Assembly (NCBI RefSeq): GCF_016464705.1
Contig: NZ_JAEHOB010000009.1
Coordinates: 219,640-252,106 of the forward strand
Direction of reading: 5' to 3'
Length of the DNA: 32,467 nucleotides
DNA from: Qaidamihabitans albus
GTDB taxonomy: Bacteria > Actinomycetota > Actinomycetes > Mycobacteriales > Pseudonocardiaceae
Shown here: one piece after another, positions 502 through 20,035 of the stretch
Position numbering within the stretch: the first letter of the stretch is position 1
Layout of the letters: every line of letters starts with the position of its first letter
Made by a program: the position numbers and the translations under genes
The notes under the pieces: generated by a model
Told to the model about the DNA's origin: nothing
The model's database searches: none
The model's input: the letters and a program-made list of their open reading frames with translations, nothing else

Positions 502-1743
502 CTACTGGCGATCCCTCGAACGGCCCAGCAGGTCGGTCACCGCGTCCCACAGAGTGGCCGCCAGTTGGGCTTTCGCGCCGAGCGGGATCCGCTGCTCCAG
601 CCCGTCCGCCGACAGCAGCCAGCCGGTGTTGTCCTCGACCTCGAACGCCATGCCCTCGCCCACCGCGTTGACGACGAGCAGGTCGCTGCCCTTGCGCCGG
701 AGCTTGGCCCTGGCGTGGTCGAGCACGCTGCCGTGCGCGTCGCCGGTCTCGGCGGCGAAGCCCACGATGATCTGGCCGGGCCTGCGGTCGGCGACGAGCC
801 CGGCGAGGATGTCGGCGTTCCGGGTGAGGGTGATCGCCGGGTCGGGCGCGTCGTCGGTCTTCTTGATCTTGTGCTCGGCCCGCGACTCGGGCCGGAAGTC
901 GGCGACCGCGGCCGCCATCACGACCACGTCGGCGTCCACCGCCGCGGCACTGACGGCCTTGCCGAGCTGCTCTGCGCTGGACACGTGCACGACCTCGGCG
1001 CCGGCCGGCTCGGGCAGGGCCACGGTGTGCGCGGCGACCAGCGTGACGTCGGCGCCGCGCTGGGCGGCGACCCTGGCCAGTGCGTAACCCTGCTTGCCGG
1101 AGGAGCGGTTGCCGAGATAGCGCACCGGGTCAAGGGCTTCGCGGGTGCCGCCCGCGGACACCACCACCCGCACGCCCTCCAGCTCACGCGGCAGCGCATC
1201 CGGCCGGGCGAGGAGCAGCCGCGCGAGATCGACGATCTCGCGCGAGTCCGCGAGCCGCCCCTTGCCGGTGTCCACGCCAGTCAGCCGCCCCGAGTCGGGC
1301 TCGGTGACGACGGCACCGCGCGCACGGAGCAGGGCGACGTTGTCGCGGGTGGCCGGGTGCTCCCACATCTCCGTGTGCATCGCCGGGAAGAACGCGACCG
1401 GGCAGCGTGCGGTGAGCAACGTGTTGGTCAGCAGGTCGTCGGCGAGTCCGTGAGCCGCCCTGGCGAGGAGGTCGGCGGTCGCGGGGACGACGAGCACGAG
1501 GTCGGCTTCCTTGCCCACGCGCACGTGCTGCACGTCGGGCACCTCGGTGAACACGCCGGTGTGCACCGGATGCCCGGACAACGCCTCGAAGGTCGCCGCA
1601 CCGACGAAGCGCAGCGCGGCCTCGGTCGGCACCACGCGCACGTCGTGCCCGGACTCGGTCAGGCCGCGCAGCACCTCACAAGCCTTGTAGGCCGCGATGC
1701 CGCCGCCCACGCCGAGGACGATCTTCGGTTGGCTCACATCCAC
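502..1743 (-). CDS. coaBC: Bifunctional phosphopantothenoylcysteine decarboxylase / phosphopantothenate-cysteine ligase
   Basis: Catalyses two consecutive steps of coenzyme A synthesis: ligation of cysteine to phosphopantothenate (CoaB, C-terminal) and FMN-dependent decarboxylation (CoaC, N-terminal). The CoaC half begins KIVLGVGGGIAAYK (residues 7-20), has the likely catalytic His near residue 73 (VQHVRVG) and the PAMHTEMW segment at 120-127. The CoaB half has NRSSGKQGYALA, the KIKK lysines and DLLVVNAVGEGMAFE near the end. The length (413 aa) is normal. The frame stays open to 1800, but that extension would run through a palindromic repeat; the GTG codons at 1743 or 1737 just before the conserved KIVLGV start are more likely. 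It lies downstream of rpoZ and upstream of metK. Confidence 0.93.
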   Translation of the reverse strand: MDVSQPKIVLGVGGGIAAYKACEVLRGLTESGHDVRVVPTEAALRFVGAATFEALSGHPVHTGVFTEVPDVQHVRVGKEADLVLVVPATADLLARAAHGLADDLLTNTLLTARCPVAFFPAMHTEMWEHPATRDNVALLRARGAVVTEPDSGRLTGVDTGKGRLADSREIVDLARLLLARPDALPRELEGVRVVVSAGGTREALDPVRYLGNRSSGKQGYALARVAAQRGADVTLVAAHTVALPEPAGAEVVHVSSAEQLGKAVSAAAVDADVVVMAAAVADFRPESRAEHKIKKTDDAPDPAITLTRNADILAGLVADRRPGQIIVGFAAETGDAHGSVLDHARAKLRRKGSDLLVVNAVGEGMAFEVEDNTGWLLSADGLEQRIPLGAKAQLAATLWDAVTDLLGRSRDRQ

Positions 1744-1762: not shown

Positions 1763-1807
1763 CTCGTGAGTGCGTCGCAAGTTAGAACGCGTGCCGCCAC
1801 TCACGAG
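1763..1807 (+). repeat. Palindromic intergenic element, copy 1
   Basis: A 45-bp element with perfect 10-bp arms, CTCGTGAGTG (1763-1772) and CACTCACGAG (1798-1807), and the conserved centre GTTAGAACGC (1781-1790). It fills most of the gap between the rpoZ stop (1832) and the coaBC start (1743), so it would lie in the 5' leader of coaBC within a same-strand gene run. The same arms and centre recur at 12782 and 17933. No T-run follows, so it is not a classical intrinsic terminator. Confidence 0.85.
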
Positions 1808-1831: not shown

Positions 1832-2107
1832 TCACTCGCCTTCGGTGTGCTCGAGCAGGCCGGCGTGGATCTCGCGGAGCGCGATCGACAGCGGCTTCTC
1901 CCGCGGGCCCGGCTCGACGAGCGGGCCGACGTACTCGAGCAGGCCTTCGCCCAGCTGCGCGTAGTAGTCGTTGATCTGGCGGGCACGCTTGGCGGAGTAG
2001 ATCACCAGCGCGTACTTGGAGCTGACCTTCTCGAGCAGGTCGTCGATGGGCGGGTTGGTGATGCCTTCGAGCTGCTCGCTCTGGGCACCCAACGTAATCG
2101 CGGTCAC
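1832..2107 (-). CDS. rpoZ: DNA-directed RNA polymerase omega subunit
   Basis: Small RNA polymerase subunit that helps assembly and stability of the core enzyme by contacting beta-prime. The 91-aa product has the omega core [19 protein letters not shown] followed by [13 protein letters not shown], and a C-terminal tail [18 protein letters not shown], all typical of actinobacterial RpoZ. The GTG start at 2107 overlaps the gmk stop (GTGA), so translation is probably coupled to gmk. The same frame is open far upstream, but that part is a shadow of gmk. A palindromic repeat separates it from coaBC downstream. Confidence 0.94.
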
Positions 2108-11431: not shown

Positions 11432-12021
11432 CGCCGTTGCTCCCCGGTCTCCCTGAGCAGGACCGCGTCACGCCCGTCCACCTCGGTGAGCAGCACCGAG
11501 ACGTCCTCACTGCGCGAGGTCGGCACGTTCTTGCCCACGTAGTCGGCGCGGATCGGCAGCTCACGATGGCCCCGGTCGACGAGGACGGCGAGCTGGACGG
11601 AACGCGGCCTGCCGTGGTCGCGCAGGGCGTCGAGCGCGGCGCGGATGGTGCGACCGGAGTAGAGCACGTCGTCGACGAGCACGACCACCCGGTCGTCGAT
11701 GCCGCCCTCGGGAACCTGGGTCTGCTCCAGCGGCCGGGTGGGCCTGCGCCGCAGGTCGTCCCGGTAGAGCGTGACGTCGAGCGCCCCGGTGGGCACGGCG
11801 ATGCCGGAGAACTCGCCGATCCTGACGCCGAGCCGCGTGGCGAGGGGTGTTCCCCTCGTGGGTATGCCCAGCAACACGGGTGGGGCATCCGGGCCCGCAC
11901 CGAGTGCGGTCTTCTCGATGACCTGATGGGCCATTCGAGCGATGGTGCGCGCGACATCGCCGGCCGAGAGCAGCTCGCGCTCGGCGGCCGGTTCCGCCGC
12001 GCCACGTGGACGTGGCGCCAC
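11428..12021 (-). CDS. pyrR: Bifunctional pyr operon regulator PyrR / uracil phosphoribosyltransferase
   Basis: RNA-binding regulator of the pyr operon that senses UMP/UTP versus PRPP and retains uracil phosphoribosyltransferase activity. The 197-aa product has the PRPP-binding motif [12 protein letters not shown] at 114-125, [11 protein letters not shown] at 51-61 and DVTLYRDDL at 82-90, all PyrR signatures. The GTG at 12021 has a very strong AAGGAGGT (12034-12027) upstream; the frame open to 12771 is a shadow of bldD. A PyrR-binding hairpin covers the region immediately before this ribosome site, so it probably represses its own translation and, by coupling, that of the operon. Confidence 0.96.
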
Positions 12022-12276: not shown

Positions 12277-12765
12277 ATGGGCGATTACGCCAAGGCGCTC
12301 GGGGCGAAGCTCCGCGGGATCCGCCAGCAGCAGGGCCTGTCCCTGCACGGAGTCGAGCAGAAGTCCGGCGGGCGCTGGAAGGCGGTCGTCGTCGGTTCCT
12401 ACGAGCGCGGCGACCGCGCCGTGACCGTCCAGAAGCTCGCCGAGCTGGCCGACTTCTACGGGGTACCGGTGGTCGAGTTGCTGCCCGAGGGCAGGGTGCC
12501 ATCCGGCGCCGAGCCAGCCACCAAGATCGTGATCAACCTGGAACGGCTCCAGCAACTGCCTGCGGAGAAGGTCGGCCCGCTCGCGCGCTACGCGGCGACG
12601 ATCCAGAGCCAGCGCGGCGACTACAACGGCAAGGTGCTCTCGATCCGCACCGAGGACCTGCGGTCGCTGGCGATCATCTACGACATGACGCCCGGCGAGC
12701 TCACCGAGCAGCTGATCGACTGGGGGGTGCTGCCGCCGGAGGCACGCCCGGCGAAGGAAGACTGA
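12277..12765 (+). CDS. bldD: Developmental master regulator BldD
   Basis: DNA-binding protein that represses sporulation genes in growing Streptomyces when dimerised by tetrameric cyclic di-GMP. The 162-aa product has an N-terminal Xre-type helix-turn-helix (about 6-68, [18 protein letters not shown]) and the C-terminal domain with the full c-di-GMP signature RxD-X8-RxxD: Arg113-Gly-Asp115 and Arg124-Thr-Glu-Asp127. The ATG at 12277 has GGAG at 12264-12267. It is transcribed away from the pyr operon and towards nusB, with which it is convergent across a palindromic repeat. A BldD box in its own promoter suggests autoregulation. All ligand residues are present, so the protein should be c-di-GMP responsive. 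Confidence 0.96.
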
Positions 12766-12781: not shown

Positions 12782-12827
12782 GTCGTGAGTGCGCACGCGA
12801 GTTAGAACGCTTGTCGCCACTCACGAC
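12782..12827 (+). repeat. Palindromic intergenic element, copy 2
   Basis: 46 bp with perfect 10-bp arms GTCGTGAGTG (12782-12791) and CACTCACGAC (12818-12827) and the centre GAGTTAGAACGC (12799-12810). It sits between the convergent bldD and nusB genes, 17 bases after the bldD stop, and could fold as a bidirectional hairpin, though no T-run follows. Same orientation and layout as the copies at 1763 and 17933. Confidence 0.88.
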
Positions 12828-12845: not shown

Positions 12846-13295
12846 CTAGAGAACCGCGCGCAGCCGGTCGGCGATGTTGCCGATGCGGCCGAGCACACCG
12901 TTGACGAAGCGCGGCGAGTCCTCGGTCGACAGTTCCCTGGCCAGCCCGACCGCCTCGTCGATCGCGACCGGGTCCGGCACGTCGGACGCCCAGAGCAGCT
13001 CGTAGACCCCGAGCCGCAGGACGGCCAGATCGACCGGCGGCATGCGGGTCAGGGACCAGCCCTGCGCGTGCTCGGCGAGCACCTCGTCGATGTGCTCGCG
13101 CTGCGCGCTCACGCCTTCCACCAGGGTGATCGTGTAGTCGCCGATCGGTTCGGCCCCGGTGGCGCCGACCCGCTCCGACAGCAACGTGACCGGGTCGGCG
13201 GCACGCTGCGCCGCCTCGTACAGGATCTCGACGGCGCGCCTGCGGGACGCGCGGCGGCCGGTGGAGCCGCGCCGGGGGGTGTCGTCCGCGTTCAC
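12846..13295 (-). CDS. nusB: Transcription antitermination factor NusB
   Basis: RNA-binding protein that with NusE (S10) forms part of the rRNA antitermination complex. The 149-aa product is all helical with the NusB core: RRRAVEILYEAAQR near the start, DLAVLRLGVYELLW in the middle and the C-terminal motif AIDEAVGLARELSTEDSPRFVNGVLGRI. The GTG at 13295 lies 8 bases after the efp stop, so the two are cotranscribed. The order pepQ-efp-nusB is the same as in Mycobacterium (Rv2535c-Rv2533c). Confidence 0.95.
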   Translation of the reverse strand: MNADDTPRRGSTGRRASRRRAVEILYEAAQRAADPVTLLSERVGATGAEPIGDYTITLVEGVSAQREHIDEVLAEHAQGWSLTRMPPVDLAVLRLGVYELLWASDVPDPVAIDEAVGLARELSTEDSPRFVNGVLGRIGNIADRLRAVL

Positions 13296-17145: not shown

Positions 17146-17733
17146 ATGCCCGACAAGGACGAGCGCGAGCTGATCCGCGACCCGAGGCGCCTGCGTGCCC
17201 TGGCCCATCCACTGCGCTGGGAGCTGCTCGACCTGATCGCCGCCGAGGGGACCGCCACCGCCACCCGGTGCGCGCACGTCCTCGACCAGAGCGTGGCGAG
17301 CTGCTCGTACCACCTGAACATGCTGGCCAAGTACGGCTTCGTCGAGGAGGCTGCCGGCGGTGAGGGCCGGGAGAAGCCGTGGCGGGTCACCAGCGTGAAC
17401 CAGGACTTCCGGTTGTACGACCTGGAGCAGGAGGGCGTCCTCGCGGGCGAGGCGGCAGCGGGTGCCCTGGTCGACCGCGAGGCGGCGTTGCTGAAGGACC
17501 GCATCCGCCGGCACGGCCTCGAACCCGTCGAGTGGCAGCGCACGATCGGGATGATCAGCTCGAACACCTTTCTCACCGCCGACGAGCTCGCGGCGGTGCG
17601 CGAGGAGCTGATGGCGATCGTCGACCGCTACCGGGACCGGCTCACCGACCCCGACCTGCGACCCGCCGGGTCACGCGAGGTCCGGCTCTTCGCCGCGACC
17701 ACCGTGGCACCCGAGCGGCCGAACCCGAGCTGA
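17146..17733 (+). CDS. ArsR-type winged-helix transcriptional regulator
   Basis: 195-aa regulator. The N-terminal winged helix (about 8-85) carries LRALAHPLRWELLDLIAAEG, TRCAHVLDQSVASCSYHLNMLAKYGFVEEA and a wing GEGREKPWRVT, as in ArsR-family repressors with HPLR/W and SYHL signatures. There is no obvious metal-binding cysteine cluster; the single Cys pair is not in an ArsR/SmtB ligand layout. The C-terminal half is helical and of unknown ligand. ATG at 17146 is preferred over the TTG at 17137 because of the promoter spacing. Probable targets are itself, the 60-aa gene 13 bases downstream and the divergent lipoprotein. Confidence 0.85.
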   Translation: MPDKDERELIRDPRRLRALAHPLRWELLDLIAAEGTATATRCAHVLDQSVASCSYHLNMLAKYGFVEEAAGGEGREKPWRVTSVNQDFRLYDLEQEGVLAGEAAAGALVDREAALLKDRIRRHGLEPVEWQRTIGMISSNTFLTADELAAVREELMAIVDRYRDRLTDPDLRPAGSREVRLFAATTVAPERPNPS

Positions 17734-17746
17734 GACTGGGGGCCCG

Positions 17747-17929
17747 ATGACCCATCCCGTGTTCACCGAGGCAGTGGTCCGGCAGAGACATGCGAACCTG
17801 CTGGCGACGGCCCACAGGGGTCGCGCCCGGCCGGTCCGCCCGCCCCGGCTCCGGAATCGCCGGCAGCGACTGGGCTGGCTGCTCGTCGAATGGGGCCTGC
17901 ACCTGGCCACAAAACGACCCGCGGCCTGA
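17747..17929 (+). CDS. Small basic protein (60 aa)
   Basis: 60-aa Arg-rich protein (MTHPVFTEAVVRQRHANLLA at the start, then RPPRLRNRRQRLGWLLVEWG) ending in a short amphipathic or membrane-associating helix. It resembles the many small actinobacterial proteins with a QRxxxLLA start, a basic linker and an RLGxxLVxxGxxL end found next to regulators. It follows the regulator stop by 13 bases with GGGGG upstream of ATG, so it is probably cotranscribed. The function is unknown. Confidence 0.65.
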   Translation: MTHPVFTEAVVRQRHANLLATAHRGRARPVRPPRLRNRRQRLGWLLVEWGLHLATKRPAA

Positions 17930-17932
17930 CGA

Positions 17933-17972
17933 GCTCGTGAGTGCGCACGCGAGTCAGAACTCGCGTGCGCAC

Positions 17973-17980
<8 letters not shown>
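17933..17980 (+). repeat. Palindromic intergenic element, copy 3 (perfect 22-bp arms)
   Basis: 48 bp that fold into a perfect 22-bp stem (17933-17954 with 17959-17980) with a CAGA loop. The outer GCTCGTGAGTGCGCACGCGA and the centre GAGTCAGAAC show it belongs to the same family as the copies at 1763 and 12782. The right arm contains the aroQ stop codon (17973-17975), so the element supplies the last codons of aroQ. It lies between convergent genes and may act as a terminator in both directions. Confidence 0.9.

Positions 17981-20035
<2,055 letters not shown>

Follow-up and report, generated by a model that had tools for sequence, protein, structure and literature searches.

The genome of the soil actinobacterium Qaidamihabitans albus contains some 450 copies of a 44-bp palindrome, and the reading that we favour, with some reservation, is that of a dispersed, recently active and fixed-length REP-like family, whose copies come to lie at gene 3' ends, most of all between convergent genes, and each fold as a 3'-end hairpin for both transcripts. 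The family is seemingly still being spread and swapped, and its copies probably shape the ends of RNA messages. REPs, abundant gene-end hairpins of debated function, are an old puzzle, and to our knowledge work on them has been confined to other phyla. The family described here is a REP-like one in the Actinobacteria, within a bacterial family rich in antibiotic producers, and no description of the 44-mer was found in the open-licence papers of PubMed Central.

The element and its copies in the window

The window, by which we mean the whole stretch of 32,467 nt that was analysed, holds three members of the family. They were found in the three gaps named in the first-pass annotation, with the shared centre and the variant centre of copy 3 described there, and the gene contexts given for them (copy 1 between same-strand genes before coaBC, copies 2 and 3 between convergent genes) were confirmed (Table 1). 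The genes coaBC, rpoZ, bldD, nusB and aroQ were named by NCBIfam. All three copies have exact 9-bp feet. The 9-mer TCGTGAGTG occurs six times on the two strands of the window, where 0.37 occurrences are expected, and all six lie within the three copies; the arm-spacer-arm pattern at 44 bp with at most three mismatches gave two matches against 0.01 expected, a count that leaves out the shorter copy 1. Copy 3 is predicted to fold into a 20-bp stem inside the 44-mer (-40.4 kcal/mol), and the perfect 22-bp hairpin previously ascribed to it is reached only when the flanking GC/GC is counted. For copies 1 and 2, arms of 10 bp had been reported, and indeed pairing is perfect over about 10 bp and imperfect beyond (-19.2 to -21.8 kcal/mol). 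No Rfam family matched the window at the gathering score, and none of the three copies was called in a scan for canonical terminators.

Table 1. Copies of the 44-mer and neighbouring genes in the window
Feature	Position	Strand	Description
coaBC	502-1737	-	Same-strand pair with rpoZ, copy 1 between
Copy 1	1764-1806	+	43 bp instead of the typical 44; centre GTTAGAAC
rpoZ	1832-2107	-	Same-strand pair with coaBC
bldD	12277-12765	+	Convergent with nusB, copy 2 between
Copy 2	12783-12826	+	44 bp; centre GTTAGAAC; inner arms imperfectly paired
nusB	12846-13295	-	Convergent with bldD
Gene ahead of copy 3	17146-17733	+	Resembles ArsR-type regulators, below cut-offs
Small ORF	17747-17929	+	Seen by eye, missed by the gene caller; faces aroQ
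Copy 3	17935-17978	+	44 bp, near-perfect palindrome; centre GTCAGAAC
aroQ	17973-18407	-	3' end at copy 3
aroQ stop codon TGA	17973-17975	-	Within foot TCGTGAGTG, supplied by the right foot of copy 3

Copy number and anatomy in the genome

A search for exact 9-bp feet in the genome that holds the window (6.53 Mb, 63 contigs) gave 452 copies with a spacer of 4-30 bp and 449 with one of 24-28 bp; with 7-bp feet and the total length fixed at 44 bp, 459 were counted. The reversed-pattern control had 0 matches in each case. The genome-wide search proposed as a check therefore returned some 450 copies rather than few. The central sequence is conserved in the further copies as well (59 of the 71 oriented copies have GTTAGAAC unchanged), and taken together the copy number and the conserved centre support well the initial suggestion of a dispersed mobile REP/MITE-like family. 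As a short extragenic palindrome in high copy number, the element agrees with REPs in general.

A detailed reading of 1.19 Mb (18% of the genome), in which copies with up to two foot mismatches were admitted, gave 111 copies, 103 of them without a foot mismatch, seven with one and a single copy with two, and this sharp fall indicates that few decayed copies exist. From one set of 88 candidate rows, the 13 that had three or four foot mismatches were left out; a control with shuffled sequence yielded 17 such rows, all with four mismatches, and the real rows with three numbered four, two of them overlapping interrupted elements. The anatomy is unusually clean, with a fixed length, a near-invariant pair of feet and tip, and a covarying stem: 108 of the 111 copies measure 44 bp, two 43 bp and one 45 bp, and the feet TCGTGAGTG/CACTCACGA of the 44-bp copies carry eight substitutions in 1944 letters, while their inner 26 letters differ on average at 1.7 positions from the nearest other copy read. 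A profile of 71 copies (drawn from 75, keeping those of 44 bp and free of N) has invariant feet, a conserved A at position 13, CG at positions 16-17 and a conserved centre. The flanks are unconserved except for C at -1 (59/71) and G at +1 (48/71).

Placement at gene 3' ends

The 111 copies lie in convergent gaps in 60 cases, in same-strand gaps in 42 and in divergent gaps in eight, and one is inside a gene, as compared with 97 convergent, 366 same-strand and 170 divergent gaps of at least 40 bp in the background. Convergent gaps are thus enriched (odds ratio 6.6, p 2e-17) and divergent gaps depleted (odds ratio 0.21, p 1.6e-6), both relative to a background that includes the occupied gaps, with copies in shorter called gaps also counted. 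Genes were called with a home-made codon-usage caller. With respect to the adjacent genes, 130 of 162 3' ends fall between 40 bp inside and 30 bp outside the element, and in 38 of the 162 the stop codon is the TGA of TCGTGA in the foot. Copies occupy 35 of the 71 convergent gaps of 40-120 bp, 12 of 39 measuring 15-39 bp, 1 of 41 below 15 bp and 10 of 26 above 120 bp. In stretches of five other genomes, 43 rows were read (22 convergent, 15 same-strand, none divergent, five uncallable and one inside a gene), of which two look like chance, namely the one inside a gene and a row of 42 bp; four of the five uncallable rows belong to a genome in which genes could not be called (G003). The copies thus share the usual situation of REPs, most of them lying past gene ends in convergent or same-strand gaps. 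No orientation bias with respect to transcription was detected in the same-strand gaps of the 1.19 Mb, where the mRNA centre reads AG in 21 cases and CU in 19; that the three window copies share one orientation is correct as a fact, and in view of this wider set it is a coincidence of three.

A stable hairpin at gene 3' ends is also what an intrinsic terminator offers. None of the 162 gene ends has at least four T in the 8 nt after the element (background 23/1101), and the mean number of T in these 8 nt is 1.06 as compared with 1.20 in the background, so that a canonical terminator with a U-tract was rejected. The best residual hairpin had a median energy of -7.7 in gaps with the element and -23.1 in element-free gaps, a comparison that we did not use because it is confounded by the differing residual lengths.

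Distribution and turnover among relatives

Among 59 relatives, the 24 genomes of other families in the order have no copies with exact 9-bp feet. With a wider pattern, one match or more was obtained in 94 of 150 Pseudonocardiaceae genomes, counting that of Q. albus, many of them at the level of the reversed control, and 19 of the 150, spread over nine genera, have at least 20. The reversed control itself gave 33 matches in one genome (G028), as compared with 0-8 in the other 149. Outside the family, four of 245 genomes of the class have any match, three of them one and the fourth, G233, five. These five matches in a genome of another family are 44-bp palindromes of the type TCGTGAGTNG...CNACTCACGA on contigs C69, C140, C158, C160 and C203 and have the look of a related form. 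Across genera, the interior changes wholesale while the feet, the class of the centre and the length stay constant.

Copy numbers vary wildly within genera, from 401 to 12 in one genus (g27), from 127 to 0 in another (g25) and between 62 and 0 in a third (g19). Among named genomes (48 loci searched, of 50 given from 80 fetched), Kibdelosporangium persicum has 394 copies, Amycolatopsis sp. CA-126428 186, Prauserella shujinwangii 151, A. azurea 146 and Saccharopolyspora hirsuta 132, and there are none in P. flavalba, P. cavernicola, P. rugosa and both Saccharomonospora genomes. A. coloradensis has 10 copies, as compared with 90-167 in four sister genomes, and as copy number is so unlike in close relatives, the gene responsible could be sought by comparison. 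One of the loci, JOAA01000015.1 (L043), is titled Rhodococcus rhodnii and has 116 copies; its genome of 12.4 Mb and its Pseudonocardiaceae-like synteny suggest that the name is wrong.

Individual copies turn over quickly. The slot of copy 2 holds a shorter hairpin of the TCGTGAGCGG type in P. flavalba and P. cavernicola. In a congener (G001, 77-90% identical per block), eight of 12 sites could be aligned and none has the 44-mer, while at two of the eight another long hairpin was seen by eye in the gap. For five Amycolatopsis species, stretches of 120-140 kb that are 91.4-93.3% identical were compared, and 45 orthologous comparisons could be made with 14 of the 16 copies; PyrC served as synteny anchor, and another candidate anchor, an accessory gene, had no match in four relatives. 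A coding stretch TCGTGCGCG... that matched the loose pattern in several Amycolatopsis was excluded by the stricter pattern used here. The same copy was shared in none of the 45 comparisons; in one gap two species both have a 44-mer, with unlike interiors (a case counted once in each direction). The alignments show gain or loss, with gaps too rearranged for the edges of an empty site to be placed precisely.

In the Amycolatopsis set, two or more species have a strong palindrome in each of eleven orthologous convergent gaps, and in nine of these the palindromes fall into more than one cluster when each gap is represented by its single best inverted repeat and grouped by single-linkage clustering, which lumps some unlike palindromes. 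In one gap, five species have five palindromes in four clusters, and A. azurea also retains a remnant left foot of the 44-mer. In the genome of Q. albus, 25 of 52 convergent gaps of at least 40 bp have an inverted repeat with a score of at least 12, as compared with none of 52 random pieces of the same lengths. A second dispersed palindrome family, GCCATGAAnGnCTCGTTACTGGC..., occurs in gaps of this genome (contig C1 at about 83680, 136839, 208579, 278322 and 573964) and resembles palindromes in gaps of Amycolatopsis sp. WAC 01376. A third, based on CCCCAATGTGGCA..., lies at 87479, 206121 and 311301 of C1 and at 116547 and 73445 of the fetched part of C63; it is also present in G001, and a variant form in gaps of A. 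azurea.

Recent mobility and a proposed role at transcript ends

The patchy copy number, the absence of shared copies in 45 comparisons and the different families in 9 of 11 gaps indicate that the 44-mer is a recently mobile REP-like repeat. Since the copies sit in slots where relatives carry other hairpins, action at transcript 3' ends is its likeliest function. The first-pass annotation had proposed a mobile element rather than a terminator; the mobile part of this proposal stands, and the either/or does not, because of these shared slots. A putative factor that recognises the constant feet and tip would copy the repeat into gene ends, and the inner arms would need only to pair. In the RNA of either converging gene, the copy would then form a long hairpin and thereby fix where both transcripts end, either by factor-helped (Rho/NusG-type) termination or by arrest of 3'-5' exonuclease trimming. 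As T is not enriched past the element, either of these is likelier than autonomous termination. Several points speak against a role at 3' ends: the T-run is missing, in the 38 of 162 genes that stop inside the foot a terminating ribosome would cover the hairpin, and a terminator alone leaves the fixed length, the invariant feet and the conserved centre without explanation. Should the function prove true, the repeats would be ready-made bidirectional end modules for actinomycete engineering. With palindromes being swapped in orthologous convergent gaps, the idea that mobile DNA supplies bacterial transcript ends becomes open to test.

The 44-mer might instead be a tolerated parasite, that is a miniature mobile element without a host function, which accumulates at 3' ends because selection removes insertions elsewhere. 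The patchy copy number within genera, the lack of copies common to close relatives and the missing T-run are all in keeping with a parasite, and the stop codons supplied by the foot look like insertion into gene tails. We nevertheless consider it unlikely, as half of the convergent gaps of 40-120 bp are occupied, the orthologous gaps of relatives are filled by other long palindromes, and decayed copies are as few as the single one with two foot mismatches among 111.

Stem pairing and possible exchange of interiors

Covariation was assessed by comparing the pairing of the inner arms within elements with that after the right arms had been re-dealt among elements. In Q. albus, 5.89 of 9 pairs are formed as compared with 5.31 (z 4.9, n=71), in A. 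azurea 7.27 as compared with 5.62 (z 9.0, n=41 among the matches listed) and in A. dendrobii 7.59 as compared with 5.55 (z 6.7, n=22 among the matches listed), and up to four types of Watson-Crick pair are found at a single stem position. Covariation is weak in Q. albus and absent at position 15, and one subfamily of this genome joins two unlike halves, which suggests that pairing is favoured and not strict. Inverted complementarity in the flanks is slightly in excess (10/111 at 4 bp as compared with 4.2 re-dealt, 10 being at most reached in 500 re-deals), so some stems continue beyond the 44-mer.

The weak pairing of the inner arms in Q. albus, together with the fixed length and the position-specific conservation (feet, A13, CG16-17 and centre), would also suit a dimeric DNA-binding protein that reads the 44-bp duplex as a transcription roadblock or as a nucleoid-organising site between converging genes. 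We regard such a site as improbable, given the rapid turnover of the copy sets and the strong covariation of the inner arms in A. azurea and A. dendrobii, where their sequence changes: letters that are free to vary yet bound to pair fit a hairpin better than a duplex site.

One observation concerns how the interiors of the favoured hairpin change. Amycolatopsis sp. WAC 01376 has a repeat of about 460 bp, two copies of which are unlike at 12 of the 26 inner letters of their 44-mer and at none of the 18 foot letters, whereas the adjacent flanks differ at 2 of 143 letters (p 1e-9 as compared with the inner letters). The stem has changed at five pairs, each of them intact in either copy, and the centre is flipped, so that this case, which is a single pair of repeats, points to an exchange of the interior. 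In Q. albus, 16-18 copies (e.g. at 426468 of C1 and 21432 of the fetched part of C63) form a subfamily in which conservation extends into the flanks, GCCTGGTCACCTC-[44]-CCGGTGACCTGCGG; two or three members share longer flanks and are possibly a MITE-like carrier of the 44-mer. Per-site differences among 16 members are 0.20-0.21 in the flanks (inflated by two members that are shifted by two bases), 0.25 in the inner arms and 0.02 in the feet. As flanks and inner arms differ about equally, this subfamily gives no signal of interior replacement. We tentatively speculate, and would not be surprised to be wrong, that a putative enzyme system reads the hairpin of exactly two 22-bp arms by the foot TCGTGAGTG and the GTTAGAAC tip and copies or exchanges whole interiors between gene ends, and that convergent gaps in Pseudonocardiaceae are slots contested by several palindrome families, so that an unrelated hairpin would take the place of the one of an orthologous pair over a divergence of about 8%.

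Relation to known repeats

It is very improbable that the family is a classical REP mobilised by a Y1 (RAYT/TnpA-REP) transposase, even though its size, copy number and gene-end placement match those of REPs in the accessible text of PMC3733652. A search for such an enzyme in the same genome had been advised, and PF01797 gave 0 matches there; it is also absent from 19 of 22 other copy-bearing genomes, i.e. present in 3 of 23 including our own, as compared with matches in 5 of 14 genomes of a control set. Mobilisation by Y1/RAYT was therefore rejected, and no mobility enzyme for the family emerged from these PF01797 searches. Nor do the feet, which read TCGTGAGTG/CACTCACGA, end in an unpaired GTAG or CGTC tag. 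The classical reading is mostly refuted, and a Y1 enzyme on a plasmid absent from the assembly could rescue it. That TCGTGAGTG is an uptake word of the Neisseria/Haemophilus type, which forms hairpins when inverted, is hardly credible and was rejected, since this invariant 9-bp word, found in inverted pairs at gene ends, is not abundant as a single copy: 206 of its 232 occurrences in 1.19 Mb are in pairs of the 44-bp class, the 26 unpaired ones (about six expected from composition) include some from one-mismatch or interrupted elements, and centre and length are conserved too.

GTAG REPs with their RAYT are likewise mobile dispersed palindromes at gene ends, but the 44-mer family has no Y1 transposase in its own and 19 of 22 other genomes. 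We know of no way by which CGTC-class REPs spread, and head-to-head dimers, one of their points of comparison, were not noticed for the 44-mer. As far as the accessible text of PMC3733652 goes, REPs measure 20-40 bp, number hundreds per genome and lie mostly between convergent or same-strand genes near 3' ends, and the CGTC class is reported without a dedicated transposase; neither 'actinobac' nor 'Streptomyces' occurs in the text of that paper. The 44-mer resembles CGTC REPs, as they are described there, in being a dispersed short palindrome, in its abundance, in its gene-end placement and in having no dedicated transposase, but differs in its 44 bp, its two symmetric feet, its fixed length and its lack of a GTAG or CGTC tag (PMC3733652, accessible part). 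As the tag and the transposase are both missing, we file the family as REP-like and not as a GTAG or CGTC REP. According to PMC1525189, insertion sequences also land in REPs, frequently between convergent genes.

The SLS families are likewise repeated and fold into hairpins, some being thought to be terminators, but they are a survey class set by the search method, and the 44-mer family was not seen in the available portion of that survey (PMC2267715). For Streptomyces, the accessible sections of PMC12207403 describe U-poor transcript ends as usual, and the intrinsic terminators there share with the 44-mer a GC-rich actinomycete host, long stable end hairpins, few U and covariation; they keep 3-4 U in 10 nt, whereas no T enrichment follows the 44-mer, whose sequence moreover belongs to a shared repeat with one constant length. 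MITEs are similarly short and non-coding with conserved inverted ends, and some 44-mers lie within longer repeats, but here the whole element is the palindrome and there is no target-site duplication, with no excess of direct repeats of 2-10 bp (at 2 bp, 20/111 as compared with 20.0 re-dealt). Some elements have a centre interrupted by a small repeat containing TGCGGGACACCCGCACCCGG, which gives palindromes nested in palindromes (at 11918 of the fetched part of C63 and at 135856 and 537680 of C1, with a two-hairpin arrangement at 509697), and this small repeat also occurs elsewhere on its own, apart from the 44-mer.
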